In this document: positions 210 through 32,598 of the stretch, piece after piece
Layout: the number at the start of each line of letters is the position of its first letter
How positions within the stretch are numbered: the first letter of the stretch is position 1
IMG/VR virus record: IMGVR_UViG_3300037237_000074
Location: 1 to 32,598 of that record
From: a virus
Length of the DNA: 32,598 nt
Reading direction: 5' to 3' (one strand)
Notes under the pieces: model-generated
Database searches by the model: none
What the model saw: only the letters and a program-made list of their open reading frames with translations
What the model was told of the DNA's origin: nothing
Translations under genes and position numbers: made by a program

Positions 210-644
210 CTACCGAAGTTGATCAAGGTCGATCCCTTCCACGATGTGAACCACGGGCATCACGGTCACCGTCTGCCGTGGTGGCAGCTGCCCCAGTTCC
301 TCGGCCACGGTGTGCAGGATCGCCGTCCTGGCCTTGATCCACTCGTGGTGGTCACGCTTGTCGTTGCCGAGCGCCAGCGCGTAATCCGACTGGTAGGCAA
401 GGATCCGGTTCTCCTTGCTGGCGATCCACAAGCCTGCGAACTCGTTGCTGAGCTCGGCCTTGATCTGGTCTATCTCCCACTCGTGCTGCTTGGCGAACTG
501 GGTGACGTAGGACGGGCTGACGCCGAAGTCGCGGGCGAGCTGGGCGCGCTTCCGCTCACCCGTGGCCAGGGCTCGCTGTAGTTTGCGCCGGTCGAACGGC
601 GTGAGCTTCCGTGAAGTCAAGCCTTTAACTGTCCGCTCGGTCAT
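210..644 (-). CDS. Terminase small subunit-like HTH protein
   Basis: 144 aa. The start is ATG at 644, preceded by AGGAAG/GGGGAG and overlapping the upstream stop as ATGA; the longer open frame upstream of this is not needed. Residues about 14-45 form a helix-turn-helix (RRKLQRALATGERKRAQLAR, then DFGVSPSYVTQFAKQHEWEI). A helical middle with YQSDYALAL and a C-terminus with AEELGQLPPR follow. This architecture is typical of actinophage terminase small subunits, which oligomerise, recognise the pac or cos site and recruit the large subunit. The family call rests on pattern recognition. Context supports it: it is early in the minus-strand late operon beside the repeat-rich region 839-1281. A generic phage HTH regulator is the alternative. 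Confidence 0.6.
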   Translation of the reverse strand: MTERTVKGLTSRKLTPFDRRKLQRALATGERKRAQLARDFGVSPSYVTQFAKQHEWEIDQIKAELSNEFAGLWIASKENRILAYQSDYALALGNDKRDHHEWIKARTAILHTVAEELGQLPPRQTVTVMPVVHIVEGIDLDQLR

Positions 645-838
645 CTTCCTAGTCTCCCCTTTCCTTGCCGGGCCCGGTAGTCGCGCTGCGCTTGTGCGTT
701 GCCGCAGCGGTCGGTGCAGAACATGGCATCCGTCCGGCCGCCTTCGCCGCGGTAGAACACGTTGGTGCAGGTCTCGCTGGCGCACACCTTGGCCTCTGGG
801 AGCGGTGCGCGGCAGGTGGGGCAGCGGTCGGGTTGCAC
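641..838 (-). CDS. Small zinc-finger protein, first gene of packaging operon
   Basis: 65 aa, GTG start at 838. Cysteine pairs CPTC (residues 6-9), CASETC and FCTDRC indicate two zinc knuckles, followed by a basic tail (QRDYRARQGKGRLGR). The pattern FCTDRCGN followed by a basic helix resembles CGNR-type and HNH-associated zinc fingers, but no HNH catalytic residues are present. It probably binds nucleic acid or acts in packaging, since it is translationally coupled (ATGA) to the terminase-small-like gene. The inverted repeats at 837-890 lie directly upstream and may contain the late promoter. Confidence 0.65.
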   Translation of the reverse strand: MQPDRCPTCRAPLPEAKVCASETCTNVFYRGEGGRTDAMFCTDRCGNAQAQRDYRARQGKGRLGR

Positions 839-891: not shown

Positions 892-1001
892 TGATGGCAA
901 GGTGCCATGCGGTTGCCATGCCCGGGAAGCAAAGTGCTTCGCGTTTGCTTCGGTCTTGCTTCGGTCTTGCTTCGGGTTTGCTAGGCGGTTGGTTCGGGGT
1001 A
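892..1001. repeat. 11-bp helically phased repeat array A
   Basis: The stretch divides into ten consecutive 11-bp units with no gaps. The clearest are TGCCATGCGGT (903), TGCCATGCCCG (914), GCTTCGCGTTT (936), GCTTCGGTCTT (947), GCTTCGGTCTT (958, exact copy), GCTTCGGGTTT (969) and GCTAGGCGGTT (980). An 11-bp period is about one helical turn and is not a multiple of three, so it argues for protein binding rather than coding. Its position about 55 bp upstream of the packaging operon suggests a terminase recognition (pac/cos) site or a late-control region. Confidence 0.75.
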
Positions 1002-1046: not shown

Positions 1047-1340
1047 ATGGAACTCAGCGCGGGGCTGCGGGCAGCCGAGGCCGAGCTAGCCAGGCGCCCG
1101 CCGCCACCGATGACCCTTGAGTCGCATCCGCTGAGCTGCTGGCTGCTGGCCGAGATCTACGCCGCCCGGGATCGCATGTGCGATCGCACACCGATCGCAG
1201 GTGCGACGGGTTCGGGAGAGTCTCATGAGAGTCTCCCGAAGGTCTCACGAGGGTTACGCGAAGGGTGCGCGAGGAATCGCCAGCACCCTACGGCTTACCC
1301 TTCGGCTTACCCTGCACGAACGAGCCCCAGCCTGGCGTGA
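1047..1340 (+). CDS. Possible small protein (doubtful)
   Basis: An open frame of 97 codons from ATG at 1047. The first about 45 residues look protein-like (MELSAGLRAAEAELARR, then SHPLSCWLLAEIYAARDRM). The remainder is translated from the 11-bp repeat array B and the last 53 codon-strand bases overlap the GntR gene on the opposite strand. There is no convincing ribosome binding site. A short real gene with a fortuitously extended C-terminus is possible; pure chance is equally likely. No function is suggested. Confidence 0.3.
   Translation: MELSAGLRAAEAELARRPPPPMTLESHPLSCWLLAEIYAARDRMCDRTPIAGATGSGESHESLPKVSRGLREGCARNRQHPTAYPSAYPARTSPSLA
1169..1281. repeat. 11-bp phased repeat array B
   Basis: From 1216 six in-phase 11-bp units follow each other: GAGAGTCTCAT, GAGAGTCTCCC, GAAGGTCTCAC, GAGGGTTACGC, GAAGGGTGCGC and GAGGAATCGCC. 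Before them, units starting GATCGCA recur every 11-12 bp (about 1170, 1182 and 1193), then GACGGGTTCGG at 1205. The unit sequence differs from array A but the period is the same. The array ends 6 bp before the stop of the GntR gene. Probably a multimeric protein-binding platform. Confidence 0.7.
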
Positions 1341-1530
1341 TCTCCACGAGCCCGGCGTCGCGCAGGTAGGCGAGCACCTTCCGGGCCGTGTTCCGGGCGA
1401 TGCCGTACTGCTGCGCCAGCGTGACGATCGACAGCATGGCGCCAGCGGGTAGCTCGCCGCTCTCAATCTGTGACCTGACCTGCTCAGCGACCTGCCGCCA
1501 CGGTGGTACGGCCGAGCCACGGTCAACCAT
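1288..1530 (-). CDS. Minimal GntR-family regulator (KorSA-like position)
   Basis: 80 aa, ATG at 1530 preceded by AGGTG. The whole protein is a GntR winged helix: PPWRQVAEQVRSQIESG, LPAGAMLSIVTLAQQYGIARNTARKVLAYLRDAGLVEI, wing TPGWGSFVQG. The usual C-terminal effector-binding domain is absent, since family members are normally about 230-260 aa. It is divergent from the transfer-type operon beginning at 1606. In AICEs and Streptomyces conjugative plasmids a GntR repressor (for example KorSA of pSAM2) occupies this place and represses transfer, so the same role is inferred here. The C-terminus KPKGKP comes from a 12-bp DNA repeat. Confidence 0.85.
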   Translation of the reverse strand: MVDRGSAVPPWRQVAEQVRSQIESGELPAGAMLSIVTLAQQYGIARNTARKVLAYLRDAGLVEITPGWGSFVQGKPKGKP

Positions 1531-1605: not shown

Positions 1606-1815
1606 ATGGACGCACTTGCGCAGGGCTTACCTGCTCGGCCCGAGCCGGGCATCGCCGACGTGCTCACCGAGTTCGGCGAGACGCATCAGATCGAGTTCGC
1701 CGAGTTCTGCGTCGTCGCCGTGCGGCGGCCGACGCCAAGCCAGCAGGAGGTCACCACGGGACGGAACCTGACCGAGCTGCTTGCCAAGCTGCGGGCCGAG
1801 CGCGATGGCACCTGA
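1606..1815 (+). CDS. Small hypothetical protein, first gene of transfer operon
   Basis: 69 aa from ATG at 1606 (MDALAQGLPARPEPGIADVL). An in-frame ATG at 1555 would add 17 residues but lies in the presumed operator. The start at 1606 has only GAGGAC directly in front, so the message may be near-leaderless. The product is acidic and soluble, with no recognised domain. It overlaps the next gene by 11 bp and is probably co-regulated with the transfer genes by the GntR protein. Confidence 0.55.
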   Translation: MDALAQGLPARPEPGIADVLTEFGETHQIEFAEFCVVAVRRPTPSQQEVTTGRNLTELLAKLRAERDGT

Positions 1816-2023
1816 CGTGAAGCGCTGCCCCGGGCATCCGGGCAGCGTTGACCTGGTGGTCGGCGACCCCGCACACATCGACCCGATCCACCTGACTGCC
1901 GCCGAGTGGCAGGAGTTCGTCACGGCGATCAAGGCCGGGATGTACGACGACGTGACCCGGCACCTAGACGCCGTGGCCGGCGGTGCGCACAAGTCTCGAG
2001 GCCAGCCGCCGGCCGCGGTCTGA
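1805..2023 (+). CDS. Small protein resembling the C-terminal half of DUF397
   Basis: 72 aa, ATG at 1805 (MAPDVKRCPGHPGSVDLVVG). The segment HLTAAEWQEFVTAIKAGMYD resembles the conserved end of actinobacterial DUF397 proteins (F/L-S/T-x-x-E-W-x-x-F-x-x-x-x-K-x-G-x-x-D). The N-terminal DUF397 half is not evident, so the match is partial. DUF397 proteins often accompany helix-turn-helix regulators, which suggests a regulatory partner role, but this is inference. It ends just before a GC-rich hairpin. Confidence 0.55.
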   Translation: MAPDVKRCPGHPGSVDLVVGDPAHIDPIHLTAAEWQEFVTAIKAGMYDDVTRHLDAVAGGAHKSRGQPPAAV

Positions 2024-2037
2024 CAACTGAATCGGGC

Positions 2038-2073
2038 GGGGCCGCCCAGGAGATTAAAGCTCCGGGCGGCCCC
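2038..2073 (+). terminator. GC-rich hairpin ahead of DUF2637-traB genes
   Basis: GGGGCCGCCC (2038-2047) pairs with GGGCGGCCCC (2064-2073), and after one bulged A the stem continues with GGAG/CTCC around a 7-nt loop (ATTAAAG). There is no U-tract. It could be a rho-independent-like actinomycete terminator or an attenuator limiting expression of the downstream translocase operon. The ribosome binding site for the DUF2637 gene lies 24 bp further on. Confidence 0.55.
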
Positions 2074-2109
2074 TCGACCAGTCACCTGACGGAACCAGGA
2101 GACCAGATC

Positions 2110-2757
2110 GTGTCACCAGACATTACAGACGTGTCGCAAGACTCGTCACTAGATCCTGACCGGTGGATCCGGCGCGGAATCTACGCCGGGGTCGCGCTCG
2201 TCGCGGCGTTCGCATTCATCGTCAGCTACAGCCACATCTACGACCTTGGACGGCAGCACGCAGAGTTCGGCATCGCCGACCGGCTGCTGCCGCTGAGCGT
2301 TGACCTGCTCATCGTCGCGGCGACGCTCGTGCTGTGGCTGCAGAGCCGCAGCGGGGCGGAACTGACCGGGCTTGAGCAGAAGCTGCCACGCGGCACGCTG
2401 TGGGGCGGGATTGGCGCCACGGTCGCCGCGAACATCGCCTACGGCCTGCCTCACGGGTGGCTGGCGAGCGTCATCTCCGCATGGCCCGGCGCAGCTTTCG
2501 TCGCCGCTGTCGAACTCGCGATCGTCGCCGTCAAGGCTGGCCGGTTCGGCCTGCAGCCGGGCGCGTCGCCGCAGGCCAGGCCGGTGCCGTCCGATTCCGT
2601 CGGGGCTGCGAAAGCTGCATACGACGCGACAGTGCTGGCCGGCAATCCGCTGTCCCGAAACCAGCTCACCGAGCGGTTCGGCATCACCCGTGCGCAGGCC
2701 GACGAGATCCGCGAGCCCGCCGTCAGCGCATCCCTGAATGGAGGCCCGCCAGCATGA
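2110..2757 (+). CDS. DUF2637 polytopic membrane protein (Spd-like)
   Basis: 215 aa, GTG start at 2110 with AGGAG eight bases upstream. Four hydrophobic segments lie at about residues 24-41, 59-77, 96-112 and 121-140, the DUF2637 arrangement, including LPLSVDLLIVAATLVLWLQ. The C-terminal 60 residues are soluble and contain a helix-turn-helix-like stretch (LSRNQLTERFGITRAQADEI). DUF2637 proteins are found next to the TraB/FtsK-like translocase in AICEs and Streptomyces plasmids, and are thought to help transfer or intramycelial spread. The stop overlaps the translocase start (ATGA), indicating coupled expression. An upstream in-frame extension to 1906 is rejected for lack of a start signal. Confidence 0.8.
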   Translation: MSPDITDVSQDSSLDPDRWIRRGIYAGVALVAAFAFIVSYSHIYDLGRQHAEFGIADRLLPLSVDLLIVAATLVLWLQSRSGAELTGLEQKLPRGTLWGGIGATVAANIAYGLPHGWLASVISAWPGAAFVAAVELAIVAVKAGRFGLQPGASPQARPVPSDSVGAAKAAYDATVLAGNPLSRNQLTERFGITRAQADEIREPAVSASLNGGPPA

Positions 2758-4805
2758 CCACCGACCAGCGTGACCACGACGCCGAAGTGATCGAACTGCA
2801 CCCTCAGACCGAGGCGACGGAAGTTGTCGGCGAGCCCGTCGCCGACGCCGGCCCGCTCGTCCTTGAGGAGCCCGGGACGCGCCGCCAGATCATCCCTGAG
2901 AACTGGCGCCGGGACAGGATCCGGGCGACGGTCGAGCACCATGCAGGACTGCACTGGCACCGTGCGAAGTTCCACGGGGTCCGGGCGCCGATGTACGCGC
3001 TCAAGACGGTGTTCTATGCGTTCGCCGGCGTGATGGTGCTGACCGGGACGCTGATGCGGTGGTGGCACTGGACCGATGGGTGGGTGCTGGAATCGCAGGC
3101 TGTCGCGAAGGGCAACGCGGGGCACGGCGAGGCGATGGCCGCACACAAGCAGGGCATCAAGACGCGGGGCACGCGGGGCCGGATCGTGTTCGTGTGCGGC
3201 GTGCTGGCGCTGCTGCTGCTGATCGCGATGGTGGCGTTCCTGCCGGGCTGGGCTCAGCTGGCGGTCGCGACGGTCGTGTTCGGCGTCCTGGTCTACTACG
3301 GCAAGCCGGACGGCAAGTCGCTGGCTACTGCCGCGGTCGTGCCGCCTAAGTACATGGAGCCGACCCCGGAAGTGATCACGCGGGCTATGGCCAGCCTGCG
3401 GATTCAGGAGATCAACGCGCTGGTCAGGGACGGCGAGCGCCTGGCGTTCGTCACCGACGTTCACCGCGACGGGCCCGGGTGGGGTGTCGAGATCGACCTG
3501 CCTCACGGCGTGACCGCGAAGTCGATCGTCGCCAAGCGTTCCGAACTTGCGTCTGGCCTGCGGCGTCCGCTGTCGGCGACGTGGCCGAAGGGTGTCCCCG
3601 GTGAGCATGAGGGACGCCTCTCACTGTGGATCGGCTTCCAGGATCTCGCCAAGATGAAGGCGCCGGCGTGGCCGCTGCTCAAGGCCGGGCAGGCGGACGT
3701 GTTCGCCGGGCTGCCGTTCGGCACCGACCCGCGTGGCCAGCGGGTTGACGCCGGGCTGTTTGAGGTCAACTGGCTGGTCGGCGCCGCCCCAGGTCAGGGT
3801 AAGACAGCGGCGATCCGCGTGCTGGCCTGCGCCGCCGCGCTGGATCCGCTGGCCGAGATCTGGATTCACGAGCACGCCGGCAAGGGTGACCTTGAGCCGC
3901 TGGCGCAGGTCTGCCACCGCTACGTTTCCGGGCTCGATGACGAGTCGATCGCTTACGCGGCCGAGTCGCTGCGGATGCTGCGGAAGGAACTGGACCGCAG
4001 GTCGGTGCAGTTTAAGAAGATCCCCCGGGTGGACAAGCCAGACGGCAAGGTCACGCGGGACATGGCCGCGAAGCGCAGCCAGCACCTTTACCCGATCGTC
4101 GCGTTCTTTGACGAGGTGCAGAACGTGTTCATGCACCCGGAGTTCGGCGAGAACGCCAAGGCGGACGCGGCCTACATCCTGCGTGTCGGCCGGGCGTACG
4201 GCCTGATTCTGGTGCTGGGCACGCAGCGGCCGGCGGCCGACGCGGTGCCTACCTCGGTCAGCGGCATCGTCACCAACCGTTTCTGCCTCAAGGTGCCCGA
4301 CCAGCCGTCAAACGACCTGGTGCTCGGCACGAGTTCCTACCGGGCCGGATACGACGCGACGGTGTTCCGCGCCAAGACTGACGCCGGGATGGGGTGGCTC
4401 AAGGCCGAGGGTGACCCCCAGATCGTCAAGACGTACTACCTAGACCTGAACGCTACGGAGAAGGTCGCGAAGCGTGCCCGGGGCATCAGGGAGGCGGCCG
4501 GGACGCTGACCGGCTACGCGCTCGGCGAGGCTGGCGAGACGCCCGAGCGGAACTTCCTGCTCGACGTGCTCAACGTCTTCGGCGCCGACGACAAGCTCTG
4601 GTCCGAGACCGTCGCGGCGAGGCTGGCCGAGCGGATCCCGGAGGCGTACGACGCCGTTACCCGGGATTCCGTGGCCAGCCAGCTACGCAAGGCCGGGGTC
4701 GCGGTGAAGGACGTCCGCGAGACCGGCAAGGCGCAGCGGAAGGGCTGCGAGCGGGCCGACGTCGAGAGTGTCGCGGGTGTCGCGGCTACCGGGGGTCGGC
4801 TGTGA
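2754..4805 (+). CDS. TraB/FtsK-SpoIIIE-type DNA translocase
   Basis: 683 aa, ATG at 2754 with GGAGG 8-9 bases upstream. Three transmembrane segments lie at about 80-102, 144-163 and 166-183. The cytoplasmic RecA-like motor has Walker A GAAPGQGKT (343-351), Walker B PIVAFFDE (447-454) and the FtsK-type GTQRP motif (489-493). Residues about 600-662 form a winged-helix-like C-terminus. In Streptomyces plasmids a TraB of this layout forms a hexameric pore and moves double-stranded DNA between mycelia after its winged helix reads short repeats in clt. Host FtsK is less likely because of the short N-terminus and the neighbours. A dense repeat array starts inside the 3' end of this gene and continues downstream, the position of clt in known systems. 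Transfer function is inferred. Confidence 0.85.
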   Translation: MTTDQRDHDAEVIELHPQTEATEVVGEPVADAGPLVLEEPGTRRQIIPENWRRDRIRATVEHHAGLHWHRAKFHGVRAPMYALKTVFYAFAGVMVLTGTLMRWWHWTDGWVLESQAVAKGNAGHGEAMAAHKQGIKTRGTRGRIVFVCGVLALLLLIAMVAFLPGWAQLAVATVVFGVLVYYGKPDGKSLATAAVVPPKYMEPTPEVITRAMASLRIQEINALVRDGERLAFVTDVHRDGPGWGVEIDLPHGVTAKSIVAKRSELASGLRRPLSATWPKGVPGEHEGRLSLWIGFQDLAKMKAPAWPLLKAGQADVFAGLPFGTDPRGQRVDAGLFEVNWLVGAAPGQGKTAAIRVLACAAALDPLAEIWIHEHAGKGDLEPLAQVCHRYVSGLDDESIAYAAESLRMLRKELDRRSVQFKKIPRVDKPDGKVTRDMAAKRSQHLYPIVAFFDEVQNVFMHPEFGENAKADAAYILRVGRAYGLILVLGTQRPAADAVPTSVSGIVTNRFCLKVPDQPSNDLVLGTSSYRAGYDATVFRAKTDAGMGWLKAEGDPQIVKTYYLDLNATEKVAKRARGIREAAGTLTGYALGEAGETPERNFLLDVLNVFGADDKLWSETVAARLAERIPEAYDAVTRDSVASQLRKAGVAVKDVRETGKAQRKGCERADVESVAGVAATGGRL

Positions 4806-4988: not shown

Positions 4989-5525
4989 GTGCCGCTGAAA
5001 CTCAAGATTCAGCCGCCGCTGATCAAGTGCGGCGACTGCGGCAAGTCCCATCGGGCGGGCACGCGGCATACCTGTGTCACGCGCCTGGATCGCAAGCCGC
5101 GGACGCCGCGCAAGACGACGCTCAGCGGGCCGCGGCTGCAGTTGTTCACCTGCGGCGACTGCGGCAAGGCTGCCGGGCCGGGTCACTCGTGCCGGACGCG
5201 AACCGACTTCAAGGGCCGGAAGCGCAAGCAGGAGAAGGCCGAGGCCGACCGGGCGAAGAAGGAAGCGGCCGAGCGGCGCAAGGCAGCGGCGGCGAAGAAA
5301 CGGAGCGAGGCGCATGACCCCGAAGACTGCGAAGACGAGGACTGCCAGCGGTACGGGTGCGTCATGTTCCGGCGCGGGTGGCAGAAAGGCTACGAGGCCG
5401 GGCAGGGCGCCGGGTTCATTGCTGGCCATGCGGCCGGGTACGAACTCGGTCACGGCGAGGGTCAGCAGGAAGGTCACGCGCAGGGTTACAGCGAGGGTGT
5501 CGCAGCCGGGTCCGCTGGCAAGTAG
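4989..5525 (+). CDS. Double zinc-knuckle protein with charged helix and Gly-rich tail
   Basis: 178 aa, GTG at 4989. Two similar knuckles are present: KCGDCGKSHRAGTRHTC (residues about 14-30) and TCGDCGKAAGPGHSC (about 54-68). A Lys/Glu/Ala-rich probable coiled coil follows (about 80-108), then an acidic CEDEDCQRYGC segment. The tail from about residue 130 is built on G-x3-G repeats (GYEAGQGAGFIAGHAAGYEL), which often pack as helices. It is the first gene after the TGTCGCG cluster. Small zinc proteins recur in AICE transfer operons as mobile element transfer proteins; the exact role is unknown. Confidence 0.6.
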   Translation: MPLKLKIQPPLIKCGDCGKSHRAGTRHTCVTRLDRKPRTPRKTTLSGPRLQLFTCGDCGKAAGPGHSCRTRTDFKGRKRKQEKAEADRAKKEAAERRKAAAAKKRSEAHDPEDCEDEDCQRYGCVMFRRGWQKGYEAGQGAGFIAGHAAGYELGHGEGQQEGHAQGYSEGVAAGSAGK

Positions 5526-5532
5526 CGCCGCG

Positions 5533-5811
5533 GTGCCTGCGTGGCTGTTCAGCCGTCCCGGGATGACGGCGACGCTCGTGATCGCGGGCGTGGTCATCGT
5601 CTACTGCCTGCTCGTGCTGGCGATGCCGACCGGGCGCTGCTGGAAGTGCCGCGGCAGGGTGCGCGGCGGCTGTAAGCGGTGCAGGAACACGGGCCGGCGC
5701 TATCACCTGGGCGCGACGGCTATCCACCGTTTCTACTGGTCCGCGCTCGGTAACCGGCTGCGTGAACGCCGCCGCGAGCAGTTGGCCGAGGCTAGGGAGG
5801 CAGTGAAGTGA
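5533..5811 (+). CDS. Membrane protein with DnaJ-like Cys motif
   Basis: 92 aa from GTG at 5533; alternatives are GTG at 5497 and ATG at 5563, and none has a good ribosome binding site. One transmembrane helix (TATLVIAGVVIVYCLLVLAM) is followed by four cysteines arranged CWKCRGRVRGGCKRC, a zinc ribbon, then a basic helix (NRLRERRREQLAEAREAVK). The topology suggests a membrane-anchored zinc protein facing the cytoplasm. It ends in a GTGA overlap with the next gene. Probably an accessory protein of transfer or spread; function unproven. Confidence 0.65.
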   Translation: MPAWLFSRPGMTATLVIAGVVIVYCLLVLAMPTGRCWKCRGRVRGGCKRCRNTGRRYHLGATAIHRFYWSALGNRLRERRREQLAEAREAVK

Positions 5812-5966
5812 GCAAGCTCTTGAAATGGGTGCTCGGCGCGTTCGTCGTGTTCTACATCCTGAGCGATCCGAGCGCGGCGGCCGGGACGGTTCACGGCCTG
5901 CTCGGCGACCTGCAGAACGCCGGCAACTCGCTGGCGCAGTTCGTCAGCGGGCTAGGGAGCAAGTGA
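5808..5966 (+). CDS. Small membrane protein
   Basis: 52 aa. GTG at 5808 overlaps the previous stop (GTGA) and GGGAGG lies about 8 bases upstream. It begins VSKLLKWVLGAFVVFYIL, a single transmembrane or signal-anchor helix, followed by a small amphipathic Ala/Gly-rich segment ending GLGSK. Too short for family assignment. Its stop overlaps the next ATG by one base, so it is translationally coupled within the small-protein series typical of spd-like genes. Confidence 0.65.
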   Translation: MSKLLKWVLGAFVVFYILSDPSAAAGTVHGLLGDLQNAGNSLAQFVSGLGSK

Positions 5967-6130
5967 TGGCCCGGCTGCTGCCCATCGTGGCCGTGCTGCT
6001 GTTCGCGCTGGCCTACCCCCGCGCCGCCCTGATGGTGGCCGTGCTGGCCACGTCGGCGACGGTCGTGATCGTCCGCTACCTGATGCATCACCGGACGGTC
6101 TTCCAGGTCGGCGGCCGAGCGTATGCCTGA
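5966..6130 (+). CDS. Small two-helix membrane protein
   Basis: 54 aa, ATG at 5966 (TGATG junction). Two hydrophobic stretches, LLPIVAVLLFALAYPRAAL and MVAVLATSATVVIVRYLM, suggest a helical hairpin in the membrane with a short polar C-terminus. No domain is recognised. It resembles the tiny membrane proteins between tra and the operon end in actinomycete elements, which are implicated in plasmid spread. Confidence 0.65.
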   Translation: MARLLPIVAVLLFALAYPRAALMVAVLATSATVVIVRYLMHHRTVFQVGGRAYA

Positions 6131-6350
6131 CGCCGGGCGGTACGCCGAGGCGTTCCGGGCGATGTGCCTGAACGGCATCGACGAGTACGCCGCAGGGATC
6201 ACGGACGAGACAGGCGAGTACCTGCGGCTGAACCGTGCGATGGGCGAGGCCAGGGAGCAGCTCGGCGTGCCGTGGTGGCGCCGCTGGCTCATCGAGCGGC
6301 GGATCCTGCGGGAACTCGACTACTGGAATCGCACGGGGGGTTACGGCTGA
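6123..6350 (+). CDS. Small charged hypothetical protein
   Basis: 75 aa, ATG at 6123 overlapping the previous gene by 8 bp. It is soluble and rich in Arg/Glu, with helical segments (YAEAFRAMCLNGIDEYAAGI and VPWWRRWLIERRILRELDYW). The Trp/Arg-rich amphipathic second helix could associate with membranes. No known family is recognised. The gene ends in a TGATG junction with the next one. Confidence 0.6.
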   Translation: MPDAGRYAEAFRAMCLNGIDEYAAGITDETGEYLRLNRAMGEAREQLGVPWWRRWLIERRILRELDYWNRTGGYG

Positions 6351-6763
6351 TGCCTGAGTTCATCCGTCCCAAGCGGGCGATCATCGAGACGGGCGGCGGC
6401 GATTGGGTCGGCGTGCTGGTGACGCTGGTGGTCGGCGCGCTGGTGGTCGGCAGCCTGGTCGTGTTCGTGATGGCTCACGTCGTGCTGCTGGCCTGCTGCC
6501 TGGCAGCTGCCGGCCTGGTGCTCGGCGGGTTCATCGCGTGGTCGCGGTGGATCTCGAGCCCTAAGCGCCTCGCTGAGCTCCGGGCGGCCGAGCCTGCGGA
6601 ACTGCCGAACATGAGTGCCACTCATGTTGCGCTGCCCCGTGGCTGGTCAGCGGCAGTGCCGGCCCGGCGGGCACTGCCTGCGCCGGCCGAGTATCACCTT
6701 CACCTGCACGGCGTCTCACCCGATGAGGCGGCCGAGTTCATCAACCGTAGGGAGCTACCGTGA
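6350..6763 (+). CDS. SpdB-like membrane protein
   Basis: 137 aa, ATG at 6350. A polar N-terminus (MPEFIRPKRAIIETGGGDW) is followed by two adjacent transmembrane helices at about 20-65 (VLVTLVVGALVVGSLVVFVM and LLACCLAAAGLVLGGFIAW), then a soluble region with Pro/Ala-rich linker ending HLHLHGVSPDEAAEFINRRE. This plan resembles proteins of AICE transfer clusters between the translocase and the operon end. Spread function is inferred only from context. Confidence 0.6.
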   Translation: MPEFIRPKRAIIETGGGDWVGVLVTLVVGALVVGSLVVFVMAHVVLLACCLAAAGLVLGGFIAWSRWISSPKRLAELRAAEPAELPNMSATHVALPRGWSAAVPARRALPAPAEYHLHLHGVSPDEAAEFINRRELP

Positions 6764-9620: not shown

Positions 9621-9827
9621 TTGCCAGTCAAGGAACGCGACGAACTCATGACCACCGAGGAAGTCTCCGCAGCGCTCAAGGTGCCCGTGCGCACGCTGCA
9701 CGACTGGCGCCTCAAGGGGAAGGGCCCCAAGGGCGCCAAGATCGGCCGCGGGCTGCGCTACTGGCGCAGCGAGGTAGACGCATGGGTCGCCGGCCAGTTC
9801 GCCGCCGAGCAGACGGGCCAGAACTGA
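9621..9827 (+). CDS. xis: Excisionase-like HTH protein
   Basis: 68 aa if started at TTG 9621, which has GGGGAGG eight bases upstream. ATG at 9594 (spacing too short) and ATG at 9648 (typical MTTEEV start, distant site) are alternatives. MTTEEVSAALKVPVRTLHDW, then GKGPKGAKIGRGLRYWRSEVDAWV, is the HTH_17/MerR-like excisionase fold with its basic wing. Such proteins bend attachment-site DNA and direct the integrase to excision. Its place divergent from the regulator-integrase operon fits this. A purely regulatory role cannot be excluded. Confidence 0.8.
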   Translation: MPVKERDELMTTEEVSAALKVPVRTLHDWRLKGKGPKGAKIGRGLRYWRSEVDAWVAGQFAAEQTGQN

Positions 9828-9828
9828 T

Positions 9829-10332
9829 GTGGCCCGCTGCGACATCCCGCGAGCGCAGTGCCTCAACTGGCACATCCGCGACTGCCTGCGGGACCCCAAA
9901 GAGTCAGGAGACCGACTCGGCGGCGTCGTCGCTAGCTACCGGGCTCTATGCCCCAGCCATCCCGACAGCGAGCACAGTCTCTCGGTCAGCGTCGGCGAGA
10001 AAGCCCGCATCGTCTGGCACTGCTACACCAAAGACATCCACGGCAAGCTGCTCTGCAGTCCGCTGGCCATTCGCGCCGCTCTCATCCGCGACGGATGCGA
10101 GGCCGACTGCCTCGGGATGCCGAAGGATGACGAGCAAGACCTCATCGACCAGTTGGCCAAGCTCTACGCGGCCGGCCTGCATCACTCTGAACTGCGCTGG
10201 CGGATTTTCTCACTCGTTCAGGGATTCGGAGGTGAACTGCCCCCCAAGGGTCGCTACCTCGGGGGGAGACGGAAGTTCGCTGCCGATGCCGGGGTCGCTC
10301 AACCTGACCTGTACCGAGCTAAGAACCGATGA
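9829..10332 (+). CDS. Primase-type (CHC2-like) zinc protein without catalytic domain
   Basis: 167 aa, GTG at 9829, two bases after the excisionase stop; an out-of-frame ATG overlaps at 9827. The stretch Cys41-Pro-Ser-His44, then DSEHSLSVSV and IVWHCY (Cys65), resembles the DNA-primase CHC2 zinc domain, although the second CxxC pair is degenerate. The N-terminus has further cysteines (4, 11, 19). The C-terminus ends in a helix-turn-helix-like FAADAGVAQPDLYRAKNR. No Toprim or Prim-Pol catalytic domain follows. It could recognise single-stranded or origin DNA in replication. The 18-bp repeats begin 73 bp downstream, which is suggestive of an origin. Confidence 0.55.
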   Translation: MARCDIPRAQCLNWHIRDCLRDPKESGDRLGGVVASYRALCPSHPDSEHSLSVSVGEKARIVWHCYTKDIHGKLLCSPLAIRAALIRDGCEADCLGMPKDDEQDLIDQLAKLYAAGLHHSELRWRIFSLVQGFGGELPPKGRYLGGRRKFAADAGVAQPDLYRAKNR

Positions 10333-10404: not shown

Positions 10405-10463
10405 AGTGCTACGTCATGTAGCAGTGCTACGTCATGTAGCAGTCGAGTGCTACGTCATGTTGC
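10405..10463. repeat. Three 18-bp dyad repeats (iteron-like)
   Basis: AGTGCTACGTCATGTAGC is repeated exactly and in tandem at 10405 and 10423. A third copy at 10446 has one change (T for A at position 16), after a 5-bp spacer. Each copy holds the inverted arms GCTAC and GTAGC. The preceding bases include A-runs (GTAAAAAGAGAG, TGAAAAAG). Located between a primase-zinc-like gene and the next open frame, they may be replication iterons or a triple operator. Confidence 0.85.
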
Positions 10464-10482: not shown

Positions 10483-10833
10483 ATGACCGACGACGCTCAG
10501 GTCTTGATCGCAGCCCGCAAGCGCTACGCCGTCGAGCAACTGATCGGCGGGCCGGCCCAGGTGCCCGTGACGGTCATCACGCCCGAGGTCGAGCGCGCCG
10601 CTCGCCAGTGGCACGCCTGCTCGCAACTGATACACCGCCGCCCGTGGCGCAGCGTGGCGCTGTGGAGGATGTGCCTGCAGGCCATCTTTGACAGCGACGG
10701 GTACGTGACCGGCGACCCCGCCGTGCTACTGCCCCGTGACCGGGCCGGCTTCATGGCGCTCGCCAAGCGGACGCCGGACGTAGACCGCGGCCGGGCAGCG
10801 TTCTTGTTCCGTCAGCGGGCAGGTGCCCGATGA
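10483..10833 (+). CDS. Hypothetical early protein
   Basis: 116 aa, ATG at 10483 with GGGTGG just upstream; a longer frame would start inside the 18-bp repeats. It is basic and mostly helical (MTDDAQVLIAARKRYAVEQL, then VERAARQWHACSQLIHRRPW). No domain I can name. It is directly downstream of the iteron-like repeats and overlaps the next gene (ATGA), so it may belong to a replication or early regulatory unit controlled through them. Confidence 0.6.
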   Translation: MTDDAQVLIAARKRYAVEQLIGGPAQVPVTVITPEVERAARQWHACSQLIHRRPWRSVALWRMCLQAIFDSDGYVTGDPAVLLPRDRAGFMALAKRTPDVDRGRAAFLFRQRAGAR

Positions 10834-11387
10834 CGGCCGGGCTGGCCGATGGGCGCCGGGCTCGTGATGCCGGGATGGCCGCCGCGGAGTCGCGCCGGGC
10901 CGCCGAGCAGGACAAGGCCGTCATCGACGCCGCTATCGAGTACCTCGCCGGCACGGGTGAGGAGTTCAGCGCCAACGACGTGCGGCCCCTGCTGCCCAGT
11001 GTCGCGGGCTCGCTGATCGGCACCCGTTTCCTGGCCGCGTCAAGGTCGGGGCTGATCGAGCGCGCCGGGACGACGCAGGCCGACCACGAGGAAGGCCACG
11101 CCCGTCTGCTGTCTACGTGGCGCCGGGCGAGCGGAAGCAGCCTTCCGGCCGGAAGCACAGTTCCGCACGGAAGCAGGCTTCCGGCCGGTGGGGTGCAGCC
11201 CATTGCACCGCGGGTGAGCCCGGAGGCTGAGCAGGCCATGCGCAGGGCTGAGTGCGCCCTGGCTGGCGGCAGAGGTGCCACCGGGCTGAGGAACACGACC
11301 GAGGCCCGCGCACTCATCAGGCAACTGCTGGACGCCCTTACCGACGCGACCGGGGCCGAGCCCGCATCCACCGACAGCCTGTTCTGA
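10830..11387 (+). CDS. Winged-helix-like phage protein with hexapeptide repeats
   Basis: 185 aa, ATG at 10830 (ATGA overlap). Residues about 30-95 (EFSANDVRPLLPSVAGSLIG, then AASRSGLIERAGTTQADHEE and GHARLLSTW) look like the small phage winged-helix proteins in which a recognition helix is followed by a wing. A linker follows, made of three six-residue units GSSLPA, GSTVPH and GSRLPA encoded by perfectly spaced 18-bp repeats (11133-11186). The C-terminus is helical and ends TDSLF. Function unknown; probably an early DNA-binding protein. Confidence 0.6.
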   Translation: MTAGLADGRRARDAGMAAAESRRAAEQDKAVIDAAIEYLAGTGEEFSANDVRPLLPSVAGSLIGTRFLAASRSGLIERAGTTQADHEEGHARLLSTWRRASGSSLPAGSTVPHGSRLPAGGVQPIAPRVSPEAEQAMRRAECALAGGRGATGLRNTTEARALIRQLLDALTDATGAEPASTDSLF

Positions 11388-11400
11388 GAGGAAGAACACC

Positions 11401-11655
11401 GTGAGCGCACGTACCCACATGGCCGACATGGATCTGTACGAGGAAGCCTGCCAGCAGGCCGGCCGGGTCATCCCCCCCGCAAGGAACGCCAACAATGCCA
11501 GCTGGCCGGTCATCAAGATCTACCACCGCGCCTGCCGCGAGATGGAAGCGCACCCCAGGCACGCCGGCCCGATCCGCTGCCTTGCCGTGCTGGACATGGC
11601 CCGCACCGTCGAGCGCATCAACCACGCCAACCGCCCGGCCGACACCCTGCTGTAA
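11401..11655 (+). CDS. Small hypothetical early protein
   Basis: 84 aa, GTG at 11401 with GAGAGGAAG about 8 bases upstream. The sequence is helical (ADMDLYEEACQQAGRVIPPA, then WPVIKIYHRACREMEAHPRH and LDMARTVERINHAN) with no signal peptide or metal motif. No recognised family. Its stop codon lies within the first of three tandem TAACGCCGTTAC repeats. Confidence 0.6.
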   Translation: MSARTHMADMDLYEEACQQAGRVIPPARNANNASWPVIKIYHRACREMEAHPRHAGPIRCLAVLDMARTVERINHANRPADTLL

Positions 11656-11741
11656 CGCCGTTACTAACGCCGTTACTAACGCCGTTACCCCCGCAAGATC
11701 TGCGCCCCCGCAGAAGTTGCGCCCCCGCAGATATTGCGGGG
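11653..11741. repeat. 12-bp x3 and 17-bp x3 repeat cluster with hairpin
   Basis: TAACGCCGTTAC occurs three times in perfect tandem (11653, 11665, 11677); each contains the dyad TAACG-C-CGTTA. Then come 17-bp units TTACCCCCGCAAGATCT (11685, diverged), GCGCCCCCGCAGAAGTT (11702) and GCGCCCCCGCAGATATT (11719). The last forms a hairpin CCCCGCA (11723-11729)/TGCGGGG (11735-11741). It lies between two early transcription units, directly before copy 2 of the shared promoter motif. Confidence 0.85.
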
Positions 11742-30646: not shown

Positions 30647-31159
30647 TCACAGCGCCGTGATCGTCGCGCCCGCGTCGTAGGGGACGTACGTCACAGACCA
30701 GGTGATCGCCCCGGTGCTGGTGGCGACCGTGGTCACGTCGATCGTGCCGGCCGGGACGATCAGCAGCCCGCCGCTGGTGAACGGGACACCCTGCCCGCCT
30801 GACGTGGTGTTCCACAGGAACGTGCCGTCCGCGCCGCTGGACAGCAGTGCGGTCGCCTTCGCCTGCGGGACCGCCAGCGACGTCCCGACGGCCTTCCCGG
30901 TGAGGTCGAGCGTGGCGCAGAACGACGCGGTAGACGCCGACCCGCCCGTAGGCGTATTGCCGACAGACAGCGTGGTCGCCTGCGACTGGATGACCGTGCT
31001 GACCACGCCAGTCAGCGACGTAACGACCACCCGCCCACCGGCCACGGTGAAGATGTGGCCGGTGGTGCTGACCGGGAGAGTCTTGGCTCCTCCCGTGACC
31101 AGCGCGCCGTATGCGGACGCCATGAGCTGCGCCGCCTGCGACGCCGGGTTCGCACTCAT
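30647..31159 (-). CDS. Head decoration-like protein B (paralogue of 31161-31652)
   Basis: 170 aa, ATG at 31159. Beta-rich with IFTVAGGRVVVTSLTGVVST near residue 36 and ITWSVTYVPYDAGATITAL at the end. Both segments match the neighbouring protein (LFTVHNGAVLVTSFFGLVTT; INWYITYVPLDEGA). Downstream of the capsid gene such proteins are often capsid decoration or head fibre subunits; no enzymatic motif is present. Probably arose by tandem duplication. Confidence 0.65.
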   Translation of the reverse strand: MSANPASQAAQLMASAYGALVTGGAKTLPVSTTGHIFTVAGGRVVVTSLTGVVSTVIQSQATTLSVGNTPTGGSASTASFCATLDLTGKAVGTSLAVPQAKATALLSSGADGTFLWNTTSGGQGVPFTSGGLLIVPAGTIDVTTVATSTGAITWSVTYVPYDAGATITAL

Positions 31160-31160
31160 G

Positions 31161-31652
31161 TCAGGCCGTCAGCGCCCCGACGTACGCGCCCTCATCGAGC
31201 GGCACGTAGGTGATGTACCAGTTGATCGCGCCGGTCTCCGCGTTGGATGCGGTCGCCGTGATGGTCCCGGCGGACACCGGGAACGGCGCGAGAATGCCGA
31301 ACGTGACGTTGCCCGCGTGGGCACCGATCGACAGGGCGCCCGGCTTGCTGGTCGTCGGCGTGTCGATGACCGAGAACCAGGTGCCGGCCTCCTCAGTGAT
31401 CGCGACGGTGGTCGCGATCCCGTTCGTCTCGGCCGTGCCGGTCGTCGGCGCGGTGCCGACCACGAAACCGGGGTCGCCGCCAGGCACGGTGGTGACGAGC
31501 CCGAAGAACGACGTGACCAGGACAGCGCCGTTGTGGACCGTGAACAGCGTCTGCGTTCCGGGACCGCCCTGCGGGAAAGCCAGGGCGCCCGTCCGCACGC
31601 TCTGCCCGAGCACGCTGATCCGCGCAGCGTCAAGGTTGAGCCAGTTGGACAT
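31161..31652 (-). CDS. Head decoration-like protein A
   Basis: 163 aa, ATG at 31652 (MSNWLNLDAARISVLGQSVR). It has the same beta scaffold as the next gene product: LFTVHNGAVLVTSFFGLVTT, a middle beta section, and VSAGTITATASNAETGAINW leading to YITYVPLDEGAYVGAL. Located two genes after the capsid. Role as a virion surface protein is inferred from position and composition. Confidence 0.65.
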   Translation of the reverse strand: MSNWLNLDAARISVLGQSVRTGALAFPQGGPGTQTLFTVHNGAVLVTSFFGLVTTVPGGDPGFVVGTAPTTGTAETNGIATTVAITEEAGTWFSVIDTPTTSKPGALSIGAHAGNVTFGILAPFPVSAGTITATASNAETGAINWYITYVPLDEGAYVGALTA

Positions 31653-31667
31653 GTCAGAAACCTCCTG

Positions 31668-32159
31668 TCACGCGCACGGGATGCGCAGGTTCGCGGGCTT
31701 CCGCTGGACGGTCAGGTCATACAGCACCGCCATCGGCAGCGTGGCCCCGGAGCCGCTGACCGTGACGTTGATGTAGTTGTAGGTGTCGGCCAGTTCGGAT
31801 ACGAGGAAGTCCACGTAGAACACGGCGCTGGTGGTCGAGATCGGGTTGGTCAGCACACCGTTAGTGGCTCCCCATCCCGTGCCCCCGACATAGGCAATGT
31901 TCTGCGACACCCAGTGGTTCGTGTTTCCTGTCAGCCGGGTGTAACCCGTGCCTGGCTGCCCGAACCCGAGTGCCGTGGTCCAGTTGCTCGTGGTGCCACC
32001 GCTGTACGCAGTGGACGCGGTGACGGTCAGGATCGCGGCGACGGATGAGCCGTTGACCGCCACGAAACCGATGCCCGAGCAGTCCGTGAGGCAGATGTTG
32101 AGACCAGACGGGCTCGCCACCACGTCGTATTCACGGCCTAGTGCCTTCATTCCAGCCAC
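31668..32159 (-). CDS. Beta-rich head-associated protein
   Basis: 163 aa, GTG at 32159 with GAGAGGAAG upstream; ATG at 32150 lacks a site. It begins MAGMKALGREYDVVASPSGL and continues Gly/Ser/Thr-rich, with VFYVDFLVSELADTYNYINV and VLYDLTVQRKPANLRIPCA at the end. It follows the capsid gene directly and may be a decoration or capsid-stabilising protein. No family is recognised with certainty. Confidence 0.6.
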   Translation of the reverse strand: MAGMKALGREYDVVASPSGLNICLTDCSGIGFVAVNGSSVAAILTVTASTAYSGGTTSNWTTALGFGQPGTGYTRLTGNTNHWVSQNIAYVGGTGWGATNGVLTNPISTTSAVFYVDFLVSELADTYNYINVTVSGSGATLPMAVLYDLTVQRKPANLRIPCA

Positions 32160-32204
32160 TTGAGGCTTCCTCTCCCCCCGGGGGCGTTACTGCCCGGGAT
32201 ACGT

Positions 32205-32228
32205 GCCCCCGGCCATGCGGCCGGGGGC
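32205..32228 (-). terminator. GC hairpin after capsid gene
   Basis: A perfect 10-bp stem GCCCCCGGCC (32205-32214) with GGCCGGGGGC (32219-32228) and a 4-nt loop ATGC, 11 bp after the capsid stop on the minus strand. No T-run is present. It likely limits read-through so that capsid is made in excess over downstream proteins, as in many phages. Confidence 0.7.
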
Positions 32229-32239
32229 GGGGCGATCAG

Positions 32240-32598
32240 CTAGGACCGGGTGGCCAGCTGGACGAACGCGGACAGGGTGTTCGCGCTGTTGTTGTGCGGG
32301 GTCAGCGCGGACTGCAGCCACGGCCGGCCGTCCACGCGCTCGATGATGCGGTAGGCGGTCTGGTCGTTCTGGAACGCGAACTGGTCCGACGCGGCCACTT
32401 CCACCGACTGCCGGTCACCGATCAGGTAGTAGGAAAGATCGACAAAGTTGATGTCTCCGGTGGTGCCGAGCGCCGGCACCTTCTCCGTGAAGATCACCGG
32501 GCGGCCGAGGATCGTCATGGGCGGGGTGTCGGTGCCGCTGGTGTTGCCGTATCCGCCGATCCAGATCGGGCCACCGCCAGTGCCCACAGACAGCGCCA
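32240..32598 (-). CDS. HK97-type major capsid protein, C-terminal part
   Basis: At least 119 codons; the 5' end lies beyond the right edge. It contains GRPVIFTEKVPALGTTGDIN, FVDLSYYLIGDRQSVEV, SDQFAFQNDQTAYRIIERVD and a C-terminal QLATRS. This G-x-P-V ... G-D-x-x-x-x-D-x-S-x-Y ... F-x-x-x-Q-x-x-x-R-x-x-x-R-x-D-G pattern is the C-terminal A-domain region of HK97-fold capsid proteins. It would be preceded by portal and protease or scaffold genes outside the window. Confidence 0.85.
   Translation of the reverse strand, partial: ALSVGTGGGPIWIGGYGNTSGTDTPPMTILGRPVIFTEKVPALGTTGDINFVDLSYYLIGDRQSVEVAASDQFAFQNDQTAYRIIERVDGRPWLQSALTPHNNSANTLSAFVQLATRS

Follow-up and report, generated by a model that had tools for sequence, protein, structure and literature searches.

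Features of the Locus

The window analyzed comprises the whole of IMG/VR virus record IMGVR_UViG_3300037237_000074, with a length of 32,598 bases. Both ends of the contig (1–200 and 32,240–32,598) fall between the small terminase gene (TerS) and the major capsid gene. The record is therefore a fragment that lacks the genes for the large terminase and the portal. No near DNA relatives of the window were found in phage and plasmid collections, and no tRNA, tmRNA or Rfam elements were detected within it. The host of the phage is of the actinomycete type. Two genes at 2110–4805, for a DUF2637 protein and for an ATPase of the FtsK/SpoIIIE-like type (60% to L002), are carried here by a phage genome but are otherwise typical of actinomycete conjugative elements. 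The features found around TerS are as follows:

210–644, minus strand: TerS (very probable), 144 aa, with a predicted N-terminal HTH and helical region (homology, TerL neighbors, AlphaFold model)
641–838, minus strand: CGNR zinc-finger gene, immediately upstream of TerS (Pfam PF11706, E 2e-6)
855–892: GC-rich inverted repeat CCGTAAGG...CCTTACGG, containing GGACGTCGGC (minus strand); fold −21.7 kcal/mol
896–919, minus strand: ATGGCAA box (plus-strand positions 913–919) and TTGCC box (plus-strand positions 896–900), past the inverted copy; the ATGGCAA box stands at equal spacing in the related viral contig L130
926–940: inverted terminal half-copy GAAGCAAAGTGCTTC (minus strand ...GCACTTTGCTTCCC); stem-loop match, conserved in L130
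935–1001, minus strand: array of six 11-bp direct repeats, unit ACCSGAAGCAA with an AGCAA core, directed toward TerS (autocorrelation, simulations, TRF, repeat finder)
997–1043: 18-bp inverted repeat I2 (GGGTAATCACTCTCAGTA/TACCGAGAGTGAGCACCC) on the far side of the array, 83% complementary; fold −23.8
1217–1271: second, weaker 11-bp array (AGAGTCTCATG/AGAGTCTCCCG/AAGGTCTCACG/AGGGTTACGCG/AAGGGTGCGCG), overlapping a 30-bp palindrome at 1211–1240 (TRF, repeat finder)
1288–1530, minus strand: small GntR-type winged-helix regulator (PF00392, E 4e-14), with a homologue in locus L131

The array stretch is thus bounded by the GntR-type gene and by the zinc-finger/TerS pair (838–210), all on the minus strand. 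An ORF on the plus strand at 1047–1340 was not called as coding and gave no family match above the cut-off. Palindromes between 850 and 1280 are located at 997–1043, 1172–1206, and 1211–1240; the second array and several long palindromes had not been part of the original prediction. A further palindrome, I1 (1538–1573), is probably the operator of the GntR-type gene itself.

The 11-bp Repeat Array

The direct repeat at 935–1001 is ungapped and consists of six units (TGCTTCGCGTT, TGCTTCGGTCT, TGCTTCGGTCT, TGCTTCGGGTT, TGCTAGGCGGT, and TGGTTCGGGGT), with AGCAA as the constant word of the minus-strand unit. Its self-match at offset 11 is 0.75 and, as had been predicted, it includes two exact copies of GCTTCGGTCTT, at 947 and 958. 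Among the period-11 scores of the entire 32.6 kb it ranks first at the three shorter lengths tested (44–66 bp), where it reaches 0.76–0.85; in 20 order-2 Markov simulations of the whole window the highest values were 0.62–0.67. Of 2000 local simulations, none matched it, and both TRF and a separate repeat finder (direct repeat D1) agreed. The autocorrelation proposed earlier as a check of the period gave a result above all simulations, and the repeat is real and the strongest 11-bp periodicity of the window. Many other short tandem repeats were also reported in the window by TRF.

The original prediction had extended the array to ten consecutive units over 892–1001, of which the six at 935–1001 stand. 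The first four (892–934) were rejected, their offset-11 identity of 0.375 being no better than chance (0.27 expected, p ~0.17), and they hold almost nothing of the consensus except the inverted half-copy and two GGCAA boxes. This half-copy (TTTGCTT; GAAGCACTTTGCTTC) closes the array on the TerS side, and is followed by the ATGGCAA box and then by the TTGCC box. The array itself is located at −290 to −357 from TerS, and the densest GCAA/TTGC cluster of the 32.6 kb, with eight words in 150 bp (the next best having five), lies 340 bp before this gene.

Identity of the Probable Small Terminase Gene

No Pfam or PHROG match above threshold was obtained for the product of 210–644. However, its designation as terminase-small-like in the original prediction is well supported by synteny, because its homologues adjoin a Terminase_3 large subunit both in L130 and in Streptomyces phage Dagobah (MT711977; Hardy et al., 2020, PMC7650747). 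The L130 homologue (3526–3966), with 62% identity, lies ~1 kb before TerL (5041–6372, Terminase_3 E 6e-9), while that of Dagobah (1282–1794), with 36.5% identity and annotated as a putative transposase, directly precedes TerL (1802–3253, Terminase_3 E 3e-9). Homologues at 62–65% were identified in viral contigs; none was found in plasmids, and an alignment search of genome contigs confirmed no relative. From synteny the product is very probably the small terminase, the window ending before its own TerL.

The AlphaFold model shows an HTH at residues 16–63 (pLDDT about 90) followed by helices, with an overall pTM of 0.42. Comparison of the model with PDB folds returned only generic HTH/homeodomain folds (Z up to 7), and a search of solved structures with the TerS profile returned no terminase and mostly weak HTH regulators. 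Matches in BFVD were weak and included small terminases (E 0.07 or worse). That terminases are missing from the structure and PDB fold searches is not evidence against the assignment.

Conservation of the Site in a Related Contig

A corresponding site was found in L130 which, together with L006/L165, is a stretch of one contig, IMGVR_UViG_3300029993_000061. Upstream of TerS this contig carries CCGAAGCAA-AC-CCGAAGCAA-AC-CGCTAGCAA-AC-CGTAAGCAA-GTTGCTTACC-CGCG-ATGGCAA, and this composite site, which closes with AAGCA-NN-TTGCTT-N-CC-N4-ATGGCAA, has the order, spacing and orientation seen in the window. Its words and spacing are kept while both flanks are unalignable. The L130 array overlaps the end of a DUF6011 gene and lies 1.3 kb from TerS, with small genes between them. 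When a degenerate pattern of the composite-site end was searched for, no other real occurrence was found in viral or genome collections; 19 matches in genome contigs were judged to be due to chance, none having an array or a TerS relative. No such array was present in the 8 kb upstream of TerS in L131 (TerS 48%).

Late proteins are shared by the two phages at up to 94% (92% for the capsid), as are TerS and an HTH protein of excisionase-like type (48–50%). No clearly similar replication gene was found, and the early region gave no match other than a marginal one (E 0.004) near a CHC2-like gene. When positions 210–644 and 30,647–32,587 are compared with L130/L165, the capsid and two neighboring late proteins show 90–94% identity and TerS only 62%, which suggests that the TerS/site end of the late module has been exchanged or has diverged fast.

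GCAA Words in the TerS Family and the Virion End of Dagobah

A scan with the TerS profile yielded 37 loci, of which 28 were usable for the cluster test; the 5-mer test covered 33 loci and the cut-box search 35. Because several of these loci are closely related, the counts are only partly independent. In 19.6 weighted cases (2.6 expected; 28 loci) the densest GCAA[A/G] window lay no more than 1 kb before TerS. In the 700 bp upstream of TerS, GCAAA was the most enriched of 512 canonical 5-mers (119 occurrences, 24 expected; 33 loci). Other 5-mers of the same composition were mostly near expectation, the exceptions, CAAAG and AGCAA, overlapping the GCAAA word. In Dagobah, nine GCAAA words stand within 380 bp of intergenic DNA ahead of TerS, while the remaining 2,842 bp of intergenic DNA has none.

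The direct terminal repeats of Dagobah (1,187 bp), the one relative with read-mapped virion ends, have been determined from read coverage and PhageTerm (PMC7650747). The mapped repeat end, GTGCGAC^GGTCCGAT, lies 24–26 bp beyond the last GCAAA (end from PMC7650747). A GACGGTC[CG]GA box was found in 17 of the 35 loci, once per locus, always in forward orientation upstream of TerS and never on the reverse strand, and in 14 of the 17 it follows a GCAA word by 14–50 bp. A profile built from 14 boxes matched six held-out loci (E 0.006 or better), again upstream of TerS. The conserved form GAC^GGTCCGA (L007 1040–1200, and upstream of TerS in L134, L137–L157, and L162) marks a clade of uncultivated Dagobah-like phages in which the box mostly lies 21–24 bp after GCAA words, the mapped virion end of Dagobah being inside it.

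Strict 11-bp phasing was confined to the window and L130. The Dagobah clade lacks it, and helical phasing of the GCAA words there was not significant (0.08 observed compared with 0.01 ± 0.09 in a random control). The phased form may thus be a feature of the window/L130 branch only. The earlier suggestion that a ring-shaped small subunit wrapping the DNA explains the period consequently finds no support beyond this subgroup.

Alternative Roles of the Array

The main rival explanation, which we consider unlikely, is that the array represents replication-origin iterons, with a phage initiator binding the AGCAA words at their 11-bp intervals. At least 120 viral contigs (GC 23–69%) contain three WAGCAA words with this spacing, and many of these arrays are inside ORFs which, among the matches listed, match DUF1376, DUF6291, DnaB_2 or PHROG replication-initiation, primosomal, and DnaD-like families. 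The phages bearing them are unrelated to that of the window and some of their units, such as CGAAGCAAAACCGAAGCAAAGCCGAAGCAAACGCGAAGCA of L091, are nearly identical to those found here. It must be considered that the WAGCAA word itself was searched for, so that the resemblance is partly by construction while the concentration in replication genes is not, and that the family proportions are indicative and apply among the matches listed. The arrays of this kind in L008–L127 (e.g., L091, L099, L112, L125, and L101), which lie inside replication-initiator, DnaD-like or DUF1376/DUF6291 genes, look like a widespread type of origin iteron, of which no description was found in the literature searched. 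The origin of phage lambda is likewise within a gene, gene O. The arrays of DUF1376/DnaD-like replication genes share the AAGCAA word and the 11-bp period on one strand with the window, but are intragenic and often followed by short simple repeats, whereas the window array is noncoding, adjoins TerS and ends in an inverted copy. Furthermore, no known initiator family was found among the window genes examined, and the replication-like genes of the window (CHC2-like, 9829–10,332, E 0.004; wHTH-like, 10,830–11,387) are ~9 kb away, beside their own 18-bp repeats (10,405–10,460). Dagobah has its GCAAA cluster at the virion end but a separate 12-bp iteron array at 38,569–38,664, and across the family the GCAA words are associated with TerS. 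Within the window, the repeat arrays beside the CHC2-like zinc-ribbon gene, at 10,405–10,460 (18-bp GTGCTACGTCATGTAGCA), 11,132–11,188 (18-bp GGAAGCA..TTCCGG, in a wHTH-like gene), and 11,653–11,738 (12-bp TAACGCCGTTAC), are candidates for the real replication origin.

It is also improbable that the array is an operator on which a small wHTH protein, either the GntR-type regulator or a BldC/Xis-like HTH_17 protein (9648–9827), assembles head to tail and controls the leftward zinc-finger/TerS operon. The array does lie upstream of this operon, and proteins of the BldC family are known to assemble on direct repeats (PMC5859096). HTH_17 homologues are common to the window and L130 (48%), and in L002 AATTCGG words at 11-bp spacing flank the integrase near an HTH_17 gene. 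However, BldC operators are arranged as 9-bp head-to-tail units with an AT-rich AATT word, AATTXXXX(C) (PMC5859096), an arrangement which the window units, being of 11 bp with GCTTCGG words and no AATT, do not follow. The GntR-type gene already has its typical palindrome at 1538–1573. L131, which has a GntR homologue, has no array, while no GntR homologue was found in the part of L130 examined. No sigma-70-like promoter was found at the array, and an operator would leave unexplained both the link to TerS and the family-wide link of GCAA words to the Dagobah cut box. The remaining explanations are still less probable. A recent slippage product with no function would agree with the identity of two adjacent units and with the many other short tandem repeats in the window, but is very improbable, as L130 retains the words, their spacing and the site's non-repetitive end although the flanks are unalignable. 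Least probable of all is a recognition site for the FtsK/TraB-like translocase of the phage (2754–4805), comparable to the 8-bp repeats of Streptomyces clt loci: its gene and the DUF2637 gene are close to the array, and L002, with its FtsK relative, also has 11-bp arrays, yet these have a different word and flank the integrase rather than the FtsK gene, and the array is present in L130, where no FtsK homologue was found in the parts examined.

In L002, two inverted 11-bp arrays (GAATAAATTCG; 2527–2561 and 4246–4279) flank the integrase and a stretch which by eye looks like the rnpB 3′ end; an excisionase-like gene of the HTH_17 type is nearby. The arrays are probably the excisionase-binding arms of an attachment site.

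A Putative Packaging-Initiation Site

The best-supported reading, to which we assign a probability of about one half, is that the 935–1001 array, its inverted copy and the GGCAA boxes to ~896 form a cis-acting packaging-initiation (pac-like) site. The array resembles such an element in being near the terminase genes and conserved with them, as the L130 site and the family-wide GCAA words indicate. We infer TerS binding to the array, the location of the cut and the relevance of the phasing. The small terminase would bind the repeated AGCAA/TTGCT words via its predicted N-terminal HTH domains. With a recurrence of 11 bp the words share one face of the helix, so that several of the oligomer's subunits could bind side by side. 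The large terminase would thereby be positioned to make the first cut on the side of the array facing TerS, and packaging would then proceed.

The packaging site proposed in the original prediction gains from the composite site in L130, from the GCAAA clusters of the TerS family, and from the proximity of the Dagobah cluster to a mapped virion end. It is also favored by the dense GCAA/TTGC cluster before TerS in the window, and by the window and L130 having late proteins, TerS and the excisionase-like HTH protein in common but no clearly similar replication, FtsK or GntR gene. Against it, the Dagobah cut box, which stands ~21–24 bp after the last GCAAA word, was found by pattern in neither the window nor L130, and by profile in neither of them upstream of TerS. 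Other points against it are the lack of the array in L131, the 1.3 kb between array and TerS in L130, the unphased words of the Dagobah clade, the similar AAGCAA arrays in replication-initiator genes of unrelated phages, the HTH_17 protein likewise shared with L130, and the generic HTH returned by the fold comparison. The packaging reading therefore rests on position, on the word, and on the L130 site, and not on a recognizable cut site. The GC-rich inverted repeat at 855–892, at which the Dagobah cut-box profile gave no match, is only a speculative candidate for the place of the packaging cut.

The putative site resembles that of Dagobah in having a homologous TerS directly downstream, a homologous late module, and a GCAAA/TTTGC cluster in noncoding DNA before TerS. 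It differs in that the Dagobah TGCAAAG/TTTGC words are in both orientations and have no strict 11-bp phase, and in that they are followed by the cut box. The pac regions of SPP1 and SF6 (PMC4737164) also have direct repeats at the small terminase gene and a TerS with N-terminal HTH domains, such as are predicted here. In SPP1, however, the region holding boxes A, B, and C takes in the promoters of TerS, the start of the gene and the cut site (PMC4737164), whereas in the window a single word forms a compact phased array that precedes the operon, and the DNA-binding domain of SF6 showed little sequence preference for the pac repeats (PMC4737164). In HK97 a defined DNA element near the cut is likewise read by TerS (PMC11331095), but there is no repeat array; TerS has been proposed to slide along the DNA surveying its sequence, and phased words are not bound by several outer HTH domains in that proposal (PMC11331095).

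Models of TerS-DNA recognition are divided among wrapping, threading, and lateral binding (PMC9611059; PMC4737164; PMC11331095), and a review describes TerS binding in vitro as weak and mostly non-specific, with wrapping, threading and interdigitation models competing (PMC9611059). A bolder and rather improbable reading is that TerS uses several HTH domains together to recognize identical 5-bp words set in helical phase. If so, specificity would come from the phase and number of weak sites, and the window would provide a natural, sequence-specific example of multivalent recognition of DNA by TerS, whether wrapping or lateral, the Dagobah clade being its unphased counterpart. For the question of how small terminases select their genome (PMC9611059), this TerS family is a natural comparative set: a short word recurs throughout, one branch has a phased array, and another has a conserved cut box beside a mapped virion end. 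It lets the idea of multivalent, phase-dependent recognition be tested on short DNA fragments.
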